From: Thermoplasmata archaeon
GTDB taxonomy: Archaea; Thermoplasmatota; Thermoplasmata; Thermoplasmatales; Thermoplasmataceae
Direction of reading: 5' to 3'
Length of the DNA: 5,951 nt
Assembly: GCA_021797055.1 (NCBI GenBank)
Contig: JAKAAI010000111.1
Coordinates: 1 to 5,951 of the forward strand
The notes under the pieces were generated by a model. That model made no database searches. It saw only the letters and a list, made by a program, of their open reading frames with translations, and had not been told where the DNA came from. A program made the translations under genes and the position numbers. Below, one piece after another: positions 1 through 5,872 of this stretch; the stretch's first letter is position 1; every line of letters begins with the position of its first letter.

Positions 1-2
1 TA

Positions 3-1130
3 CCTGCGTTCCAACAGGCTACGGGGCAGTTTTCACTTCTTGCGGGCGCTACCGGAAAAGATGTTGAGCAAAAGGAATTAAATATGGACATGCCGGAAGT
101 AAAAGATTTGATAAACTGGTCTCCTGTTGTATGGCGTAATCCATATTTTGTAGGGCCACCCGGATCAGGGAAGACAAATTCACCAGTTCTATTGACATCA
201 TGGGCTGTCTATTTGCATCAGGGGACTATATTCGATCAGGAAATGTCTATCGATTACATGAAAAGAGGAAAAATACCTGATAGCCCTGATTGGTACAGAA
301 AGCAAGGAATAATCAGGGGAACACTTCGAGTATATTTTCCGAATATGCAATTTCCGATTGAAGAACCGAACGGCAAGAGAATTGGCGATTTAAAGACTTA
401 TACTCATTCCTATGCATATCGGCACGCATGGGAAATCTATCTGGATGATCCGCCTGGCTCTTCGGTTCTCTGGATCAAACATGATCAGACTATGAATAAG
501 CGTTTAAATCTTGGAATAAGGCCCGAGTCGATTTACGCCCTCGTTTATATGGGAGAGATGGGAAAAGGAAGGAAAATGGAATCTGGGACATCAAAAAACG
601 TAACCGCTATGATGATCAATTTTCAATTATCAAGGCAGATAGGCGTAAGATTCTTTATGTCAGGTGCAACGATGCCCGCAGCTCAGATCATGGACGCCGT
701 TAACCCCGTAATCGAGATGATTTCAACACCAACCGGAAAAAGGGATATATTAGGCAGGCCTAAATTGAAATATACCGCAGTCGCTCGATATCTCGATCCC
801 AATGGAAAGGGAGAGATAAGGCGTGATCTTGGAATTGTGCCACTTCATCCCTTAACTGAACTACTGAATGAGAATATATCATCGGATATGAGCGCCGAAT
901 TTGGAGAATTGCCACTTAAAGAAATATTCGACCAATCACAGGTTACAAATCCTATTGTCTATGAAAAGGATCCAGAGGGAGTAATCAGGGAAGTGGATCA
1001 GATAATCAGGGAAATGTATCACATAAGTTCAAGGAATGAGTATCCTGATGGCGAAAAGGTGAAACAAACAGTTAAAGTGATCGAACCTAAAAGAAACCAC
1101 GATGATGAGCCGGATGAAATATTCCTATAA
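3..1130 (+). CDS. P-loop ATPase, probable viral genome-packaging/DNA-translocation type (5' end probably outside window)
   Basis: A perfect Walker A motif, GPPGSGKT, lies at residues 24-31 counted from the ATG at 84. A hydrophobic strand, YALVYMGEMG (151-160), occupies the Walker B position; the usual Asp is Gly but the following Glu (E158) is kept. A polar stretch GRKMESGTSKN and the strand RFFMSGATMPAAQ follow, an order that resembles FtsK/HerA-like and Zot-like ATPases of archaeal viruses, where a DE pair precedes an Arg/Ser-rich segment and a sensor-like strand. The C-terminus (about 310-348) is charged. The start is uncertain. The ATG at 84 has only AAGGA upstream, while the same frame is open from base 3, and the 27 upstream codons are G-rich at first position as coding sequence is. 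I therefore treat the gene as 5'-truncated. The alternative is a start at 84, two bases after a TAA in another frame (79-81). The ATPase call is secure; the packaging role is inferred. Confidence 0.72.
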   Translation, partial: PAFQQATGQFSLLAGATGKDVEQKELNMDMPEVKDLINWSPVVWRNPYFVGPPGSGKTNSPVLLTSWAVYLHQGTIFDQEMSIDYMKRGKIPDSPDWYRKQGIIRGTLRVYFPNMQFPIEEPNGKRIGDLKTYTHSYAYRHAWEIYLDDPPGSSVLWIKHDQTMNKRLNLGIRPESIYALVYMGEMGKGRKMESGTSKNVTAMMINFQLSRQIGVRFFMSGATMPAAQIMDAVNPVIEMISTPTGKRDILGRPKLKYTAVARYLDPNGKGEIRRDLGIVPLHPLTELLNENISSDMSAEFGELPLKEIFDQSQVTNPIVYEKDPEGVIREVDQIIREMYHISSRNEYPDGEKVKQTVKVIEPKRNHDDEPDEIFL

Positions 1131-1173
1131 TATTTTGAATAGGTTGTTGGCTTTCTAAATGATGCATTTATAA

Positions 1174-2001
1174 TTATGCGGTTTGCTGGGTTTGCGGTGA
1201 TTTATCTTCCTCAGGCATTTCTTTTTCATTTCTCCAGCCTGGATGCAATCCGAATCCTTTGACCGCTTTTTCGATTTCTTTCATATCTTCATCATCGAAT
1301 TGAAGAGTCAGGTAATGTTTTAATGCCGTCTTATCTGTATGCCCCATAGACATTTCTGCAATAGTCAGTGAATGATTGTCGTTTTTGAAATAATTCACGA
1401 GCCAAGAGTTCCATGTTTTTCTGAAAACACGCAATGATAATCCATTGGTGCTAATCACTCTATCTATTGGGGCTGTTTGTCTTACAATCTTTCTCTTGCC
1501 GTCTTTTTCTATTTCTTGAATGCCGATAGTTTTATTTTCTTTATATGTGATTGTTCTTTCAGGATATCCCAATTTCTTTCCGGTTGCAGCAAGGACACTA
1601 TCTAAATATCGATATGCTTCCTTAGGATCAGAATGAAGCGGCAATGTTTTAAAGAATTTATCTACAACGCCAATGCCCATATCAGAAAGATAGACAATTC
1701 TTTCTTTGACTGTTTGTTTCTGCTTGCCGACATCATAGAAAAGATTTTTATCTAATCTTAGTGTTCCATCATCTTGAAGTAGTTCCGGATGGGAATGAAG
1801 TATGAACAATTCATAAAATCTCATTCCTGTGAACAAAAGGCCCTGAAGCCAAATCTGAACATTGCCCTTGCTGGCCGGTATTCTTCTCGACCATGAGCCT
1901 GAGGGTTCAACCTCAATATTGCTTAATATCTCTTTTATCTCGCCATATCTTAGGATTCTGGTGGCTTGCCTTGTTGCCACTTTCCATATCGGAGTTTTCA
2001 T
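1174..2001 (-). CDS. Tyrosine recombinase / integrase with minimal N-terminal domain
   Basis: This 275-aa protein would cut and rejoin DNA at attachment sites through a 3'-phosphotyrosine intermediate. Visible catalytic motifs are TGMRFYEL with R61 (box I), the beta-hairpin lysine region GKQKQTVKERIVYL (K93/K95 candidates), LSLRVFRKTW with R194 (box II, where the usual His of HxxR is R191), MGHTDKTA with H221, and KHYLTL with nucleophile Y230. Spacing from R61 to Y230 suits the family. Only about 45 residues precede the catalytic domain, so the core-binding domain present in most integrases of about 300 aa is nearly absent. It cannot be extended, because an in-frame TAA lies one codon upstream of the ATG. 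The C-terminal tail (255-275) is charged and Gln/Thr-rich. The gene is convergent with the ATPase and divergent from the structural operon. A TATA-like box 25 bases upstream predicts a leaderless mRNA. Confidence 0.9.
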   Translation of the reverse strand: MKTPIWKVATRQATRILRYGEIKEILSNIEVEPSGSWSRRIPASKGNVQIWLQGLLFTGMRFYELFILHSHPELLQDDGTLRLDKNLFYDVGKQKQTVKERIVYLSDMGIGVVDKFFKTLPLHSDPKEAYRYLDSVLAATGKKLGYPERTITYKENKTIGIQEIEKDGKRKIVRQTAPIDRVISTNGLSLRVFRKTWNSWLVNYFKNDNHSLTIAEMSMGHTDKTALKHYLTLQFDDEDMKEIEKAVKGFGLHPGWRNEKEMPEEDKSPQTQQTA

Positions 2002-2002
2002 G

Positions 2003-2095
2003 AATTATGTATCGACATTTCATTTTTAAAGTTTACGACATTTTAAACATAAATGCCGTAACGACATTCCAGCTGGGAAATGCCGAAACGATTTT
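2003..2095. repeat. Four degenerate 17-bp repeats (operator or iteron array)
   Basis: The best copy, at 2052-2068, reads AATGCCGTAACGACATT and is an imperfect palindrome centred on 2060 (AATGYCGT-A-ACGRCATT). A second copy at 2079-2095 matches it at 14 of 17 positions, and one at 2003-2019 matches at 13 of 17. At 2026-2042 only the right half, ACGACATT, is kept. Centres fall at about 2011, 2034, 2060 and 2087, a spacing of 23-27 bp. The first copy lies between the predicted integrase TATA box and its start codon, and the second overlaps the TATA box. A regulator bound here would be expected to affect integrase transcription. Integrase arm sites or replication iterons are alternatives. Confidence 0.6.
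2023..2030 (-). promoter_or_regulatory. TATA box of the integrase gene (leaderless)
   Basis: On the minus strand the box reads TTTAAAAA and is centred about 25 bases upstream of the integrase ATG. This is the archaeal TATA-to-TSS distance, so transcription should start at or next to the start codon. No Shine-Dalgarno sequence lies in front of this ATG, which fits a leaderless mRNA. Confidence 0.55.
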
Positions 2096-2167
2096 TTTCC
2101 TTATAAGAAAACTGTATAGATAACGTGCGGGCGAGGCAAAATCGAGAATTTCTTTAAAGCCGAAAAC

Positions 2168-2175
2168 TTAAAATA
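2168..2175 (+). promoter_or_regulatory. TATA box of the structural operon
   Basis: TTAAAATA follows an A-rich, BRE-like stretch. With a normal spacing of about 26 bases the transcript would start near 2195-2200, immediately before a hairpin and the Shine-Dalgarno site of the 264-aa gene. A palindromic TTATAA near 2101-2106 is a weaker alternative promoter element. Confidence 0.45.
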
Positions 2176-2199
2176 CTTTCAACGCATACTAATAATTTT

Positions 2200-2225
2200 T
2201 TGAGTGCAAAAATGAAAACACTCAA
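2200..2225 (+). promoter_or_regulatory. 5'-UTR stem-loop directly before the Shine-Dalgarno site
   Basis: TTGAGTG (2200-2206) and CACTCAA (2219-2225) form a perfect 7-bp stem with a 12-base A-rich loop. One base separates it from the ribosome-binding site GGGAGG (2227-2232), which sits five bases before the ATG at 2238. Given the predicted start site, the hairpin would lie at or near the mRNA 5' end. It could protect the transcript or tune translation of the surface-protein gene. Confidence 0.5.
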
Positions 2226-2237
2226 CGGGAGGAAAAA

Positions 2238-3032
2238 ATGTACGGAAAGAACATAACGGAAAAACGGTGGCTCACGATCATCGTTGCCCTTATAATTGTC
2301 CTTTCTGGTGCAGTTGTTGCCCTGTCGATTCAGGGATTGGCTGCCACTGGAAAGAATAATCTTACGAGCGACATTGGCCTTGGGTCTGATGTTGGAATGG
2401 TGTTTGGCTATAATGGATCGGGTAAGAATCCGACATGGGAAGCTGCAGGTCTGACATTATCTGGAAGCACAGTAGTAGCGACATTTAATGCCGGATTCAA
2501 TGTTACAAATATCGTCGTTTTCCAAAAGAATCCTGACTATTCAGTGCAGGGGCTTTTGAACAGGTCATACGTTTACACGACATTGAATGTAGGTACATCA
2601 GTACTGAACACTACGGGCGCTGCAATGACAGATAATTTCGCACTTCAAAGCGCAAATATGGAATTCGGAGAACAGGTCAACGACACATCAGTTCATTCTT
2701 TGACAGACAAAGGAGTTATACCGGCAAACATATGGTCCTCAACAGTGATATACAGCAATGCGGCAAACATTAACAATCTGAACAAATCAACTGAAATGAA
2801 CGTCTTCGGAATGTTGACAGGCAGTTTCGGATACACGGGAACAATACTAATAACATTGAATAATTCGGCAGCTCTGCCATCGACGAACCATCTTTCAGTC
2901 AAGATATACCAGCAATACGGCGCACCCTTTGATATCAATATAATCACAGTATCCCAGACAGTCATGGTAATACTCGGCGTAATAGTCTTTGTAGGTGTCA
3001 TTGTTGGAATGCCAAGAAGGAGGGAAAGGTAA
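2238..3032 (+). CDS. Membrane-anchored surface protein, candidate major virion/envelope protein
   Basis: I do not recognise the family of this 264-aa protein. It has a basic N-terminus, a strong membrane segment at about 12-36 (signal anchor or signal peptide), a Ser/Thr/Asn/Gly-rich ectodomain at about 37-235 with alternating beta-like hydrophobics and no cysteine, a second membrane segment at about 236-258, and a basic PRRRER tail. This predicts both ends inside and a loop of about 200 residues outside. Eight N-X-S/T sequons fall in that loop (N41, N59, N88, N108, N124, N148, N182, N208), which suggests heavy glycosylation. It is the first and largest gene of the operon and has the strong ribosome-binding site GGGAGG five bases before its ATG. 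The architecture suits an archaeal viral spike or envelope protein. A host cell-surface protein is possible but less likely in this context. Confidence 0.85.
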   Translation: MYGKNITEKRWLTIIVALIIVLSGAVVALSIQGLAATGKNNLTSDIGLGSDVGMVFGYNGSGKNPTWEAAGLTLSGSTVVATFNAGFNVTNIVVFQKNPDYSVQGLLNRSYVYTTLNVGTSVLNTTGAAMTDNFALQSANMEFGEQVNDTSVHSLTDKGVIPANIWSSTVIYSNAANINNLNKSTEMNVFGMLTGSFGYTGTILITLNNSAALPSTNHLSVKIYQQYGAPFDINIITVSQTVMVILGVIVFVGVIVGMPRRRER

Positions 3033-3448
3033 TGTCAAAGAGAAAAGAAAACAGCATGATGGTAGAAAGCAGGGAAATTGCAGGCATAATCGTAGGGATC
3101 ATCGTTCTCGGAATAGCTGTCTCAATATCTTATTTCCTTGGAAGCACGGGCATGTTTGCTCTTGGTTCTGGCGGAGTGATAATGGGGTTGCTGCTCGGAG
3201 GAACTCTTGGATATGCCTATGCCGCCATAAATAGAAGACGCAGATACGACTACACTCTCGGAATTGTGATACTGGGATATCTTCTCGGCGCTTATGTGAT
3301 TGAGATATTTATTCCAGATGGGCAGTTCCTCGCAAACCTTGCAACCACAGGATCGCTCGGATGGATATTGTATCTGTTCTATGGACTGGTCATATTCATG
3401 CTTCTGGTGGCGTCATTCGCATTTGCCAAGAGAACGGACCTGAGGTGA
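3032..3448 (+). CDS. Four-helix integral membrane protein
   Basis: This 138-aa protein has a charged N-terminus (MSKRKENSMMVESRE) and four predicted membrane segments at about 17-37, 42-66, 74-93 and 108-131. The middle Arg cluster NRRRR (about 68-71) marks a cytoplasmic loop, and the tail AKRTDLR is also basic. The second segment is Gly-rich (GGVIMGLLLGGTLGY), which allows tight helix packing. The start ATG overlaps the stop of the surface-protein gene (TAATG), and AAGGAGGG at 3017-3024 is its ribosome-binding site, so translation is probably coupled. I recognise no family. Its position makes it a likely envelope or assembly partner of the surface protein. A transport role cannot be excluded, but no ion-binding or catalytic motif is visible. 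Confidence 0.82.
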   Translation: MSKRKENSMMVESREIAGIIVGIIVLGIAVSISYFLGSTGMFALGSGGVIMGLLLGGTLGYAYAAINRRRRYDYTLGIVILGYLLGAYVIEIFIPDGQFLANLATTGSLGWILYLFYGLVIFMLLVASFAFAKRTDLR

Positions 3449-3452
3449 AAAC

Positions 3453-3683
3453 ATGGGGGCATTAAAAACGATCGCCTATGGTATCGTATTTTTTGTGATA
3501 CTCATAGTCGGTCTGTCCCTATATTTCGCCATCACCACACCATCAGGGCAAATGGGATTAGCAGGGATGTTCCAGCAACTCGGAAATTCGGTGCTAAGCA
3601 TGGTATCGAGTTTCTTTGCGCCGGTAACGGCATTCTTCAACGGAATAGCCCATGCCATAACGAATTTCTTTAGCCATCTGTGA
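3453..3683 (+). CDS. Small membrane protein with C-terminal amphipathic helices
   Basis: This 76-aa protein carries one clear membrane segment at about 6-28, then a Gly/Gln-rich turn. The Phe- and Ala-rich C-terminal half (about 38-76) reads as one or two amphipathic or semi-hydrophobic helices ending FFSHL. Its ribosome-binding site, GAGGTGA, overlaps the stop codon of the preceding gene, and the ATG follows five bases after that stop, so the two are tightly coupled. It has very few charged residues and no cysteine. The size and pattern fit a small viral membrane protein, for example an envelope component, a membrane-remodelling peptide or a holin-like pore. The sequence does not decide among these, and I recognise no family. 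Confidence 0.78.
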   Translation: MGALKTIAYGIVFFVILIVGLSLYFAITTPSGQMGLAGMFQQLGNSVLSMVSSFFAPVTAFFNGIAHAITNFFSHL

Positions 3684-3687
3684 GGAA

Positions 3688-3930
3688 ATGAGACCGCTCT
3701 TATTTCTCGTCGGTGTACTTCTTTTTTTCTATGTGATAGTCGAGGCTATCGAAGGAAAATTACAGTACAGCTTTGAAGGATGGATAGGAATCGGAATGTA
3801 TGACCTGTCAGAAAAATTTACGGCTATGCCATCCATGACACTGTTCATGGATCTGGTATATTTTATGACATTTGTTCTGGCTTTGGGAATGATATACATA
3901 GGAGGTACATCAAGCAAAAGAGGTGATTAG
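3688..3930 (+). CDS. Small two-helix membrane protein
   Basis: This 80-aa protein has membrane segments at about 3-20 (LLFLVGVLLFFYVIV) and 51-72. They are separated by a loop with aromatic and acidic residues (GKLQYSFEGWIGIGMYDLSEKF) that probably faces outside if both termini are inside. It ends in a short polar tail, GTSSKRGD. The ATG lies four bases after the previous stop, with TGAGGA as ribosome-binding site. It closes the block of four membrane proteins. The stop is TAG, and the same frame continues open beyond it into the next gene, so a readthrough fusion to the KGSLKKYGF protein is formally possible. I do not recognise the family; a structural or assembly role is inferred from position. 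Confidence 0.78.
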   Translation: MRPLLFLVGVLLFFYVIVEAIEGKLQYSFEGWIGIGMYDLSEKFTAMPSMTLFMDLVYFMTFVLALGMIYIGGTSSKRGD

Positions 3931-4176
3931 ATAACAAAAATAAAAATAACGCATAAAGGATCTCTCAAAAAATACGGCTTCAATACAACAGAATCTGAAA
4001 AGAAACAGATGGAAGCAATTCATAGGGCAGACAAAACATACGGCAAAGGAGAAGTCAATAAGAAACTGGCCGCACTTGAGACGTTCGACAAACATCGTCC
4101 CACGGAGCGAAAACGCATCAAAAATGTTATATTATGTGATTGTACCATTGGAATAATAAAAAGGAACAAGAGGTAA
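3931..4176 (+). CDS. Small basic protein with KGSLKKYGF motif; apparent non-canonical ATA start
   Basis: This 81-aa ORF has no usable ATG. The frame opens directly after the TAG of the preceding gene and reads ITKIKITHKGSLKKYGF, then a helical, charged region with TYGKGEVNKKLAALETF (about 37-53) and a basic, Cys-containing tail. The best ribosome-binding site in the window, GAGGTGAT (3920-3927), places an ATA at 3931 seven bases after GAGG, the same gap as for the ATG at 3453. Translation therefore probably starts at ATA, or the ATG was lost by one substitution. The only internal ATG (residue 27) would delete the first motif. From memory, the paired KGxLxxYGY and YGxxxVxRKLxAL pattern resembles small proteins annotated DUF5771 in giant viruses and in some archaeal elements. 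That link is tentative and the function is unknown. Standard ATG-based gene calling would miss this gene. Confidence 0.62.
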   Translation: MTKIKITHKGSLKKYGFNTTESEKKQMEAIHRADKTYGKGEVNKKLAALETFDKHRPTERKRIKNVILCDCTIGIIKRNKR

Positions 4177-4182
4177 AATAGA

Positions 4183-4302
4183 ATGAAAAAGGAAAGAAAA
4201 AAAGAAGACCTGGATCTAAAAAATCGAACTGTGATGGTTGTATTTCTTCCATCGCCGAAGAAGAACAAACACCAAAGGGAAAATAAAAGAAAGAGGAGGT
4301 AG
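4183..4302 (+). CDS. Very small basic protein
   Basis: This 39-aa ORF begins with a lysine/glutamate-rich helix (MKKERKKEDLDLKN), has a short hydrophobic core (VMVVFLP), and ends in a strongly basic tail (HQRENKRKRR). GAGG at 4170-4173, overlapping the end of the preceding gene, lies nine bases before its ATG. Its own end carries the GGAGG ribosome-binding site of the next gene, which fits an operon link. No family is recognised. The composition suggests nucleic-acid binding, but the local DNA is so A/G-rich that the basic composition could be partly a by-product. The arrangement supports it as a gene more than the sequence does. Confidence 0.45.
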   Translation: MKKERKKEDLDLKNRTVMVVFLPSPKKNKHQRENKRKRR

Positions 4303-4304
4303 AA

Positions 4305-4505
4305 ATGGCACGAAGAAAAATGAAAAGGAAAATAACCGAACATGATCGAATGATAGATCATGAAAATGCGCTGAAAGGGACAGAAAAATGGAAAAGAACC
4401 CCAACAGGTGCAAGGCGGGCTGAAAGAGTCCGGTCAAGGCATGGATGGGGGTTCGAAGGGAGATCTCCAAGAACCAGGAAAAGGAAATACAAGAACAAAG
4501 CATAG
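4305..4505 (+). CDS. Small arginine/lysine-rich protein, possible nucleic-acid-binding or virion core protein
   Basis: This 66-aa protein is about 40 percent Arg+Lys. It starts MARRKMKRKITEHDRMIDHENALKGTEKW in consecutive blocks and finishes with an Arg-rich region containing RRAERVRSRHGWGFEG and a poly-basic tail RTRKRKYKNKA. The perfect ribosome-binding site GGAGG (4295-4299), five bases before the ATG, makes this one of the best-supported small genes here. Only two bases separate it from the preceding stop. Such a composition is typical of DNA-condensing or RNA-binding proteins. As the last gene of a putative virion operon it could coat the genome, but this is inference. A T-rich terminator follows. 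Confidence 0.7.
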   Translation: MARRKMKRKITEHDRMIDHENALKGTEKWKRTPTGARRAERVRSRHGWGFEGRSPRTRKRKYKNKA

Positions 4506-4698: not shown

Positions 4699-5028
4699 AT
4701 GTCTAACACATATAAGGTACCAGTCTATGGAGACGTAGACTGGAAGCAAAATGTAGTGGCACGGGTACGATATCGACAGAACTTGGACCTATGGGACGGA
4801 CACAACTGGACCAATGGTGGAGTTGGATGCCATCTGGGCATAACGAAACTCAGGGACGGGAGGTATGTACTGATACATGGAACTGACTGGGAGGGGCAAA
4901 GGGATTACGGAGAGATTGTATCCCGCAAAGAAGCACTGGATGCGATCCTGAAAGCAGGATGCGACGAGCTCCTCGAGACGCAGAAATTCAGAGAATTGAA
5001 AGAACTGCTGGTGCAGGAAGAAGAGTAA
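4699..5028 (+). CDS. Uncharacterised 109-aa protein, Trp/Gly-rich core and acidic tail
   Basis: This soluble 109-aa protein has a beta-like N-terminal half: VPVYGDVDWKQNVVARVRYRQN, then WDGHNWTNGGVGCHLGITKLRDGRYVLIHGTDWEG. A C-terminal helical part follows (EIVSRKEALDAILKAGCDELL and the tail ELKELLVQEEE). The density of Trp, Gly, His and Asp in the core looks like a conserved fold, and the style recalls short hypothetical proteins of archaeal mobile elements, but I cannot name a family with confidence. GAGGT at 4687-4691 lies eight bases from the ATG. It has its own promoter with an operator-like palindrome and its own terminator, so it is a single-gene transcription unit. Its higher GC content and different codon look compared with the flanking DNA suggest a separate origin. 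Two cysteines (C44, C89) are present without a metal-site pattern. Confidence 0.82.
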   Translation: MSNTYKVPVYGDVDWKQNVVARVRYRQNLDLWDGHNWTNGGVGCHLGITKLRDGRYVLIHGTDWEGQRDYGEIVSRKEALDAILKAGCDELLETQKFRELKELLVQEEE

Positions 5029-5033
5029 ATCAA

Positions 5034-5070
5034 GGATTTTGTAAATCCCTGTCTTTTAATTTTTCCCTTG
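5034..5070 (+). terminator. Hairpin plus T-rich terminator after the 109-aa gene
   Basis: GGATTT (5034-5039) and AAATCC (5043-5048) form a 6-bp stem with a 3-base loop, followed by CTTTTAATTTTT. It begins six bases after the stop codon and lies between convergent genes. Confidence 0.6.
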
Positions 5071-5241
5071 GGTTGAACCTGTTATTTTACGCATCCACAC
5101 AAACAAATCTTTATTGGACGGGTATTTTTCGGTTTTGACTGTTTTATATGTAAGTAACATGTCAGTGGCTATAGGTTTCTGGAGAAACCTCAGGAAATAC
5201 TTGTTTTCTTTCTGTTTGGCTTTCTGTCTATTTTCTGTCAT
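5056..5241 (-). CDS. Small hypothetical basic protein
   Basis: This 61-aa ORF encodes MTENRQKAKQKENKYFLRFL, then QKPIATDMLLTYKTVKTEKYPSNKDLFVWMRKITGSTQGKN. It is Lys-rich with scattered aromatics and looks protein-like, with no membrane segment and no motif I recognise. It converges with the 109-aa gene, leaving a 27-base gap filled by the terminator. There is no Shine-Dalgarno site. A TATAAAAA box at 5257-5264 sits a little too close (about 20 bases) to be an ideal leaderless promoter, so the gene may instead be read from the leftward gene upstream (44-base gap). A perfect 7-bp hairpin at 5173-5190 lies inside it. It is supported mainly by amino-acid composition and gene spacing, and could be spurious. 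Confidence 0.4.
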   Translation of the reverse strand: MTENRQKAKQKENKYFLRFLQKPIATDMLLTYKTVKTEKYPSNKDLFVWMRKITGSTQGKN

Positions 5242-5285: not shown

Positions 5286-5648
5286 TCAACTCCGGTATAT
5301 AAAGAGGGCCGGAGTCCGGCCAGAAAAGCCCTCCTGAATCATGTGTATATAATAATAGGAGAGCAGCCGCCGCCACATGACATTTTCCCCATTGGAAGTT
5401 GCACTTTCCGCTTTCAGCTGGGATGTCATGTCCCTGTCACATGACACTCTGCATGACATCATCTCCTTTCCTCCGGGTTGCACTAGGAGAAAGTACCTCT
5501 TGTGCTTATCTGACCTTCTCGTATCTGTGGTGATCTTTTCAGAGATCTCTCGTAAGATCTGCTGCACCTCTTCATCCGTAAAAAAATCTATTGAAAGAGA
5601 TCTTCCTCCTGACTGCAGCATCATGTTTTTTGGAACCGGCAAGGGCAT
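5286..5648 (-). CDS. Hypothetical protein, possibly leaderless, overlapping CATGACA repeats
   Basis: In this 120-aa ORF the N-terminal part looks most protein-like: RSLSIDFFTDEEVQQILREI is an amphipathic helix, followed by KHKRYFLLVQPGG. The C-terminal half is less convincing because it runs through palindromes and CATGACA repeats (for example MSCRVSCDRDMTSQL) and a GC-rich inverted repeat at its end. A minus-strand TATA box, TATTTAAA (5669-5676), is centred about 24 bases before the ATG, which is right for a leaderless mRNA. Tandem CATGACA repeats cover the start codon, so autoregulation is conceivable. No family is recognised. An overlapping + strand frame (5377-5655) is also open, so the region could be non-coding control DNA. 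Confidence 0.45.
   Translation of the reverse strand: MPLPVPKNMMLQSGGRSLSIDFFTDEEVQQILREISEKITTDTRRSDKHKRYFLLVQPGGKEMMSCRVSCDRDMTSQLKAESATSNGENVMWRRLLSYYYIHMIQEGFSGRTPALFIYRS
5289..5333. repeat. Overlapping GC-rich inverted repeats
   Basis: Three symmetrical elements overlap here: ACTCCGG/CCGGAGT (5289-5295 and 5309-5315), the 15-bp perfect palindrome GGCCGGAGTCCGGCC (5307-5321), and GAGGGC/GCCCTC (5304-5309 and 5328-5333). The arms compete, so alternative RNA or cruciform folds are possible. A TATATAAA sits inside the first loop (5296-5303). The GC-rich block stands out from its AT-rich surroundings. Confidence 0.55.
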
Positions 5649-5668
5649 GACATGACATTATCCAACTG

Positions 5669-5676
5669 TTTAAATA
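5669..5676 (-). promoter_or_regulatory. TATA box of the 120-aa ORF
   Basis: On the minus strand TATTTAAA, preceded by AAACC, is centred about 24 bases before the ATG at 5648, so a leaderless transcript is predicted. The start point would fall on the tandem CATGACA repeats. Confidence 0.45.
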
Positions 5677-5696
5677 GGTTTGTGGTTACCATCATG

Positions 5697-5732
5697 AGAG
5701 ATCTCTTTCAAAGAGCCTCAAGAGTATATAAA
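5697..5732. promoter_or_regulatory. Palindromes AGAGATCTCT and CTCTTTCAAAGAG next to a TATA-like box
   Basis: AGAGATCTCT (5697-5706) overlaps the 13-bp palindrome CTCTTTCAAAGAG (5703-5715). TATATAAA (5725-5732) can serve either strand. On the + strand it points to a start at about 5755, on the second CATGACATGACA copy, but no ORF follows. AGAGATCTCT recurs at 5541-5550, and the core AGATCT occurs four times between 5543 and 5704. Confidence 0.35.
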
Positions 5733-5872
5733 GAAAAATCAAAGTCTAAAATCATGACATGACAAAATATACATTTTGACATGTATATCTGAAGCCATAC
5801 CTGCCTTGCATACTTCTTCCTGGGTTTTATCCTGTATTTTTCGTCATCTGAGTTGTTTCTCAAAACATTCAT
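5708..5872 (-). CDS. Short hypothetical protein with a good ribosome-binding site
   Basis: This 54-aa ORF starts at 5872 behind GAGGAG with seven bases of spacing, the only good Shine-Dalgarno site on the leftward strand in this region. The N-terminal part is charged and plausible (MNVLRNNSDDEKYRIKPRKK, then YARQVWLQIYM). It is followed by CIFCH, a possible half metal site, and a hydrophobic/acidic tail. The second half overlaps the CATGACATGACA repeat and a CAAAAT/ATTTTG inverted repeat, so it may be a truncated or eroded gene. No family is recognised. It would be first in a leftward series with the 120-aa and 61-aa ORFs. Confidence 0.4.
   Translation of the reverse strand: MNVLRNNSDDEKYRIKPRKKYARQVWLQIYMSKCIFCHVMILDFDFSLYTLEAL

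Follow-up and report, generated by a model that had tools for sequence, protein, structure and literature searches.

Organization of the Locus

The DNA stretch analysed here (the window, 5,951 nucleotides) contains the 3′ part of a P-loop gene, an integrase gene, a divergent operon, a 109-aa frame, and a region of repeated octamers. The gene of the P-loop ATPase-like protein (1..1130, plus strand) has its 5′ end beyond the window, and the part present encodes the C-terminal 375 residues with a Walker A motif. It is followed by a gene for a tyrosine recombinase (integrase) of divergent type (1174..2001, minus strand), which runs towards the ATPase gene and away from the operon. On the plus strand the operon begins with the gene of a 264-aa two-anchor surface protein (2238..3032), which overlaps by one base (TAATG) with the gene of a 138-aa membrane protein with four helices (3032..3448), and continues with a 76-aa protein with a single N-terminal transmembrane (TM) helix and an amphipathic C-terminal half (3453..3683) and an 80-aa protein of pI 4.8 with two TM helices by hydropathy (3688..3930). 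Then three further plus-strand frames are found: a basic open frame of 81 codons that continues the 80-aa reading frame beyond its TAG (3931..4176), a putative 39-aa frame with a Lys/Arg-rich translation (4183..4302), and a putative, very basic 66-aa frame (4305..4505), a candidate DNA-binding protein.

The original prediction described seven tightly packed genes, and for the first four this is borne out by the chain itself and by selection. The four-frame chain is 1693 nt long, while no comparable chain in 200 first-order Markov sequences exceeded 631 nt. When the genome collection was scanned with patterns from the ATPase alignment, one locus was obtained, L001, a 3.6-kb contig that is colinear with window positions 428–4035 at 96.1% identity. 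The differences between the two by codon position are 7/1/37, 3/0/14, 1/2/6, and 1/0/4 in operon frames one to four, and dN/dS is about 0.02 to 0.08, where the estimates for the 76-aa and 80-aa genes are based on 9 and 5 differences only. Thus measured against L001, purifying selection acts on the first four operon genes, the integrase gene, and the ATPase-like gene (dN 0.005, dS 0.35 for the latter).

The claim does not extend in the same way to the rest of the operon, as the fifth frame does not begin with an ATG and the sixth and seventh lie beyond L001, which spans only the first 105 nt of the fifth frame (with zero differences) and nothing of the other two. The first ATG of the fifth frame is at 4009, leaving 55 aa from there, so that a gap of a few bases after the 80-aa gene requires a non-ATG start; this and amber read-through are alternatives by which the frame may be expressed. 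As frames, the small basic proteins of the prediction are present (pI 10.1, Lys/Arg-rich, and pI 11.8 for the fifth, sixth, and seventh, respectively), and all three are likely to be genuine genes. Within this region (window 3928–4176), L001 shares both the TAG that ends the 80-aa gene and the 105 nt that follow it. A weak DUF5771 match on the fifth frame begins upstream of the ATG at 4009 (E 0.018, 15.7 bits, cut-off 26.2).

A 7-bp hairpin (2200..2225, plus strand) lies directly 5′ of the ribosome-binding site of the 264-aa gene; its stability is not significant (z −1.14; 27 of 200 shuffles were equally stable). The segment 2141–2240 is identical in the window and L001, and the strict archaeal promoter pattern had no match upstream of the operon. 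At the other end of the window the octamer CATGACAT occurs six times between 5376 and 5760 (five direct copies, one inverted) against 0.36 expected, a number that none of 200 shuffles attained. These iteron- or operator-like repeats are possibly replication iterons or an operator of the element, and no replication gene was recognised within the window.

The 109-aa frame (g109, 4699–5028) is preceded by an A+T-rich leader, in which the promoter pattern found no match, and its plasmid matches are weak (hypothetical proteins of Geobacillus and Anoxybacillus, E 0.02 and 0.1). Two minus-strand frames are located at 5056–5241 (61 aa) and 5289–5648 (120 aa), the second of which crosses part of the octamer region and has weak family matches (best E 0.024).

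Surface Protein and Membrane Proteins

Hydropathy gives 2, 4, 1, and 2 helices for operon frames one to four, in agreement with the predicted membrane proteins of four, one, and two helices (138, 76, and 80 aa) and with the two-anchor surface protein. The eight sequons claimed for the latter are also confirmed: there are nine in total, and since the sequon at N5 precedes the first anchor, eight lie between the anchors. The family of the 264-aa protein comprises 19 matches; six sequons are kept in 15–18 of 18 members, and cysteine is absent from 18 members. The family of the 138-aa protein comprises 15 matches, ten at 99–100% and five at 68–88% identity, and its alignment (A4, 7 sequences) has a mean column identity of 84%. 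As judged from these sequences, both proteins are members of real families.

Summed over clusters, the surface family is listed on 33 contigs and the four-TM family on 51. Relatives of both proteins are listed on contigs 8796 bases long (98 and 99% identity) and by contigs 24111 bases long (54 and 70% identity), a co-occurrence in two lineages that is defined by protein records listed on contigs of the same size.

Structural comparison of the 264-aa protein with archaeal virus proteins had been proposed as a check. The ectodomain is modelled as a beta-sandwich, the best structural match of this model is an archaeal S-layer domain, and the pleolipovirus spike VP4 is absent among the matches shown, the element being incomplete in the window.

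One 216-aa protein record (P0018, contig of 1367 bases) joins an N-terminus related to the integrase to a distal part related to the surface protein, unlike the window, where the two genes are divergent. This fusion represents either a recombination inversion or an assembly chimera.

Integrase and P-Loop Protein

Tyrosine recombinases are characterized by a motif of two Arg, GH, and Tyr positions, and the R, R, GH, and Y positions of the window integrase align with those of the integrase from a Methanosarcina barkeri 227 plasmid. The Smith-Waterman score of this pair is 108, against 33.7 (sd 4.9) for shuffles, none of which (0 of 300) reached it. According to this alignment the predicted integrase neighbour is a divergent tyrosine recombinase. 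The likeness is significant in the whole-protein comparison, whereas the database match is at E 0.2 only; the plasmid search returned three Methanosarcina plasmids with annotated integrases at E 0.2–0.3, and the other window proteins searched, the ATPase and g109, had no match on the M. barkeri 227 plasmid. Pfam Phage_integrase did not match, PHROG 216 integrase matched at E 0.11 only, and in comparisons with viral integrases 122 of 300 shuffles reached the score for SSV1, 15 that for APOV1, and 281 that for Humcor2.

The window's own P-loop protein is listed at full length as P0020 (502 aa), one of six matches. FtsK/HerA packaging ATPases carry Walker A, Walker B, and a C-terminal sensor within one fold. 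What is shown of the packaging-type ATPase of the original prediction is a protein with a Walker A motif, whose packaging type is putative: no Pfam, PHROG, or NCBIfam family matched at cut-off, DUF87 (HerA) matched one of the six family members at E 0.79, and the AlphaFold2 model was poor (mean pLDDT 39).

The profile of this protein gave probability 91 over 85 columns with 11 VP8 proteins of pleolipoviruses. When 1374 frames from eight archaeal virus records were compared with it, VP8 proteins took ranks one to three, and they held the top four of 23 places in the comparison with 12 control P-loop frames, where the His2 and Hardyhisp2 VP8 fell below seven of the 12 controls. The N-terminal part with Walker A scored above 200 of 200 column shuffles against VP8; without Walker A the score was reached by 45 of 200 shuffles upstream and by 85 of 200 downstream. 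The probability of 91 at first suggested pleolipovirus kinship, but in the cut-out test the signal needs Walker A. The best ATPase–VP8 match without Walker A keeps the same register, which is a weak lead. On the sequence comparisons, kinship of the ATPase with VP8 is possible.

No contig size is common to the ATPase matches and the surface-protein matches, and therefore only the window and L001 show the two genes linked.

Distribution and Host

The statement that the operon proteins have no match to a known family is correct for those scanned, as judged by curated cut-offs: none had such a match in Pfam or NCBIfam (frames five and six being scanned outside NCBIfam), and the 39-aa frame had none in Pfam. 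The 264-aa, 138-aa, ATPase, integrase, and 109-aa proteins had no relatives in the phage collection by protein search, and eight scans of IMG/VR, among them patterned scans for the 264-aa and 138-aa families, the ATPase, and the integrase, yielded zero confirmed loci. Family libraries, the phage collection, and virus profiles revealed no homologue of capsid, spike, or fusion proteins, the 76-aa, 80-aa, and basic frames having been compared with the family libraries and eight virus records only. The ATPase had no match among 72,556 plasmid records, where the integrase and g109 gave weak matches only. No literature describing the operon was found among open-licence papers with queries not specific to these proteins.

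L001, a fragment of the same element, is a contig with coverage 1.23 (from its title) in a metagenome-assembled genome (MAG) titled Nitrospirae, and the locus occurs in 1 of 395 genomes of the phylum of this MAG. GC content and codon usage of the MAG are near those of the window, so the binning of L001 may be composition-based; misbinning or a bacterial host is possible. An archaeal host is favoured by the conservation of the N-glycosylation sequons and by the likeness of the integrase to that of Methanosarcina.

According to an excerpt of a 2018 review, no archaeal virus had been isolated from mesophilic acidic environments at that time, while spindle- and rod-shaped particles had been observed at Iron Mountain (PMC6336744). 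Excerpts of other papers describe AMDV3 and AMDV3b as metagenomic viruses of the Thermoplasmatales archaeon G-plasma (PMC3330103), assign viruses from acid mine sediments to predicted hosts in Thermoplasmatota (PMC9061769), and mention in the E-plasma genome a viral packaging ATPase typical of Fuselloviridae (PMC10354927).

Possible Nature of the Element

Judged by its sequence, the operon resembles a module for a membrane particle, carried by a mobile element that has not been described before and is probably archaeal. This interpretation follows from the make-up of the operon, in which small membrane proteins, a two-anchor sequon-bearing surface protein, and basic frames are united in one mobile-element operon; the single 3.6-kb locus in the genome collection fits a mobile element as well. 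We favour, with slightly better than even confidence, the view that the operon serves as particle module for a so far undescribed integrative element, most likely an enveloped, tailless archaeal virus. The virus layout of the original prediction survives as the best reading by make-up, with no capsid, spike, or fusion homologue to accompany it. The claim of an undescribed system is supported in so far as a conserved membrane-protein operon is present beside an integrase and a P-loop protein; no clear homology to a known virus family was found in libraries, the phage collection, or virus records. More tentatively, with a probability clearly below even, the operon may be the virion module of a new family with an envelope, a cysteine-free, heavily glycosylated surface protein, structural proteins unrelated to those of known viruses, and an archaeal host.

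In such an element the integrase, assigned by family, would move the DNA into and out of the host chromosome, and the operon would be transcribed as a single transcript. The 264-aa protein is predicted to be membrane-anchored at both ends with its beta-sandwich outside, where sequon conservation suggests N-glycosylation, and probably serves for attachment. The membrane scaffold of the particle could be built from the four-helix protein together with the 76-aa and 80-aa membrane proteins, the small basic proteins may coat or neutralise DNA, and the P-loop protein, which has a Walker A motif, would drive DNA loading or assembly; release presumably occurs by budding without lysis.

The main rival, rather unlikely in our estimate, is a plasmid transmitted in membrane vesicles that it encodes itself, with the operon supplying the vesicle-membrane proteins. 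Membrane and surface proteins without a capsid homologue, the iteron-like repeats at 5376–5760, and the plasmid origin of the integrase relative are all in accordance with it; however, the ATPase is unmatched in the 72,556 plasmid records and the integrase and g109 are matched weakly. A vesicle-spread plasmid would present the same gene make-up, and the boundary between vesicle plasmids and enveloped viruses is thin. A narrower form of the virus reading, in which the element belongs to the pleolipovirus lineage as a divergent offshoot beyond the haloarchaea, is quite improbable: the types of parts are the same, the VP8 profile probability is 91, VP8 came first in two comparisons, and an excerpt of PMC10919331 mentions VP4 from Methanomassiliicoccales, but the ATPase signal does not rise above shuffles without Walker A, two VP8 proteins (His2 and Hardyhisp2) stay below seven of 12 controls, the surface and four-TM profiles are unmatched (probability at most 2.4), and the window lacks a VP4-size protein.

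A cellular surface or secretion operon with an integrase as a chance neighbour is very unlikely. Glycosylated surface proteins are common in archaea, and the S-layer domain as the best ectodomain match is consistent with this explanation; against it, the integrase and ATPase genes are adjacent in both loci read (window and L001), and one locus was found in the genome collection, in 1 of 395 genomes of the MAG's phylum. The latter is a weak argument, because the collection was scanned by ATPase patterns and not by the operon.

If the operon proteins are virion proteins, they provide marker genes for an unrecognised group, with the 33 surface and 51 four-TM contigs listed and none from the patterned IMG/VR scans. 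If the host is a Thermoplasmata acidophile, the virus of a new family would infect acidophiles and touch the gap in isolated viruses of mesophilic acidic environments indicated in the review excerpt (PMC6336744), although viruses attributed to Thermoplasmatota are known from metagenomes (PMC9061769, PMC3330103).

Comparison with Known Viruses and Elements

Fuselloviridae and other spindle-shaped viruses have a VP1/VP3-type major capsid protein as their hallmark, and VP2 of SSV1 is a basic protein. SSV1 carries the adjacent convergent genes B-251 and D-335, which we take to be the ATPase and integrase, and the window ATPase and integrase genes are also convergent. No significant similarity to SSV1 was found by profile or single-protein search, and the integrases compare no better than shuffles (122 of 300). 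With the 76-aa and 80-aa proteins as queries, phmmer gave nothing significant among the frames of three virus records (SSV1, His1, and STSV1, the last over its first 50 kb); proteins this short may evade sequence search.

Pleolipoviridae (HRPV1, HRPV6, His2, and relatives) resemble the operon in the kinds of parts: their annotations list surface proteins with two anchors, a protein of about 133 aa with four TM helices, small virion proteins that have two, and a P-loop ATPase. Among the surface proteins, His2 ORF28 is annotated as having 8 sequons besides a signal sequence and an anchor. The pleolipovirus Humcor2 carries an integrase as the window does, but 281 of 300 shuffles reached the score of the pair. 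However, the surface and four-TM profiles had no match to VP4, VP3, ORF6, or ORF7 (highest probability 2.4); the 264-aa family gave 0.8 against 11 VP4 proteins, and the 138-aa profile gave 0.1 against 9 VP3 proteins, though size and annotated helix number are similar. The V-shaped VP4 spike and fusion protein, the pleolipovirus hallmark according to an excerpt that also mentions VP4 from Methanomassiliicoccales, members of Thermoplasmatota (PMC10919331), has no counterpart of its size in the window.

A further likeness, one of principle, is to the plasmid vesicles of haloarchaea (pR1SE and apHPVs). In an excerpt of PMC10818511 the plasmid-vesicle principle is described and two conserved gene clusters are reported for apHPV elements; what these would share with the window is the idea of an element that encodes its own membrane-particle proteins.
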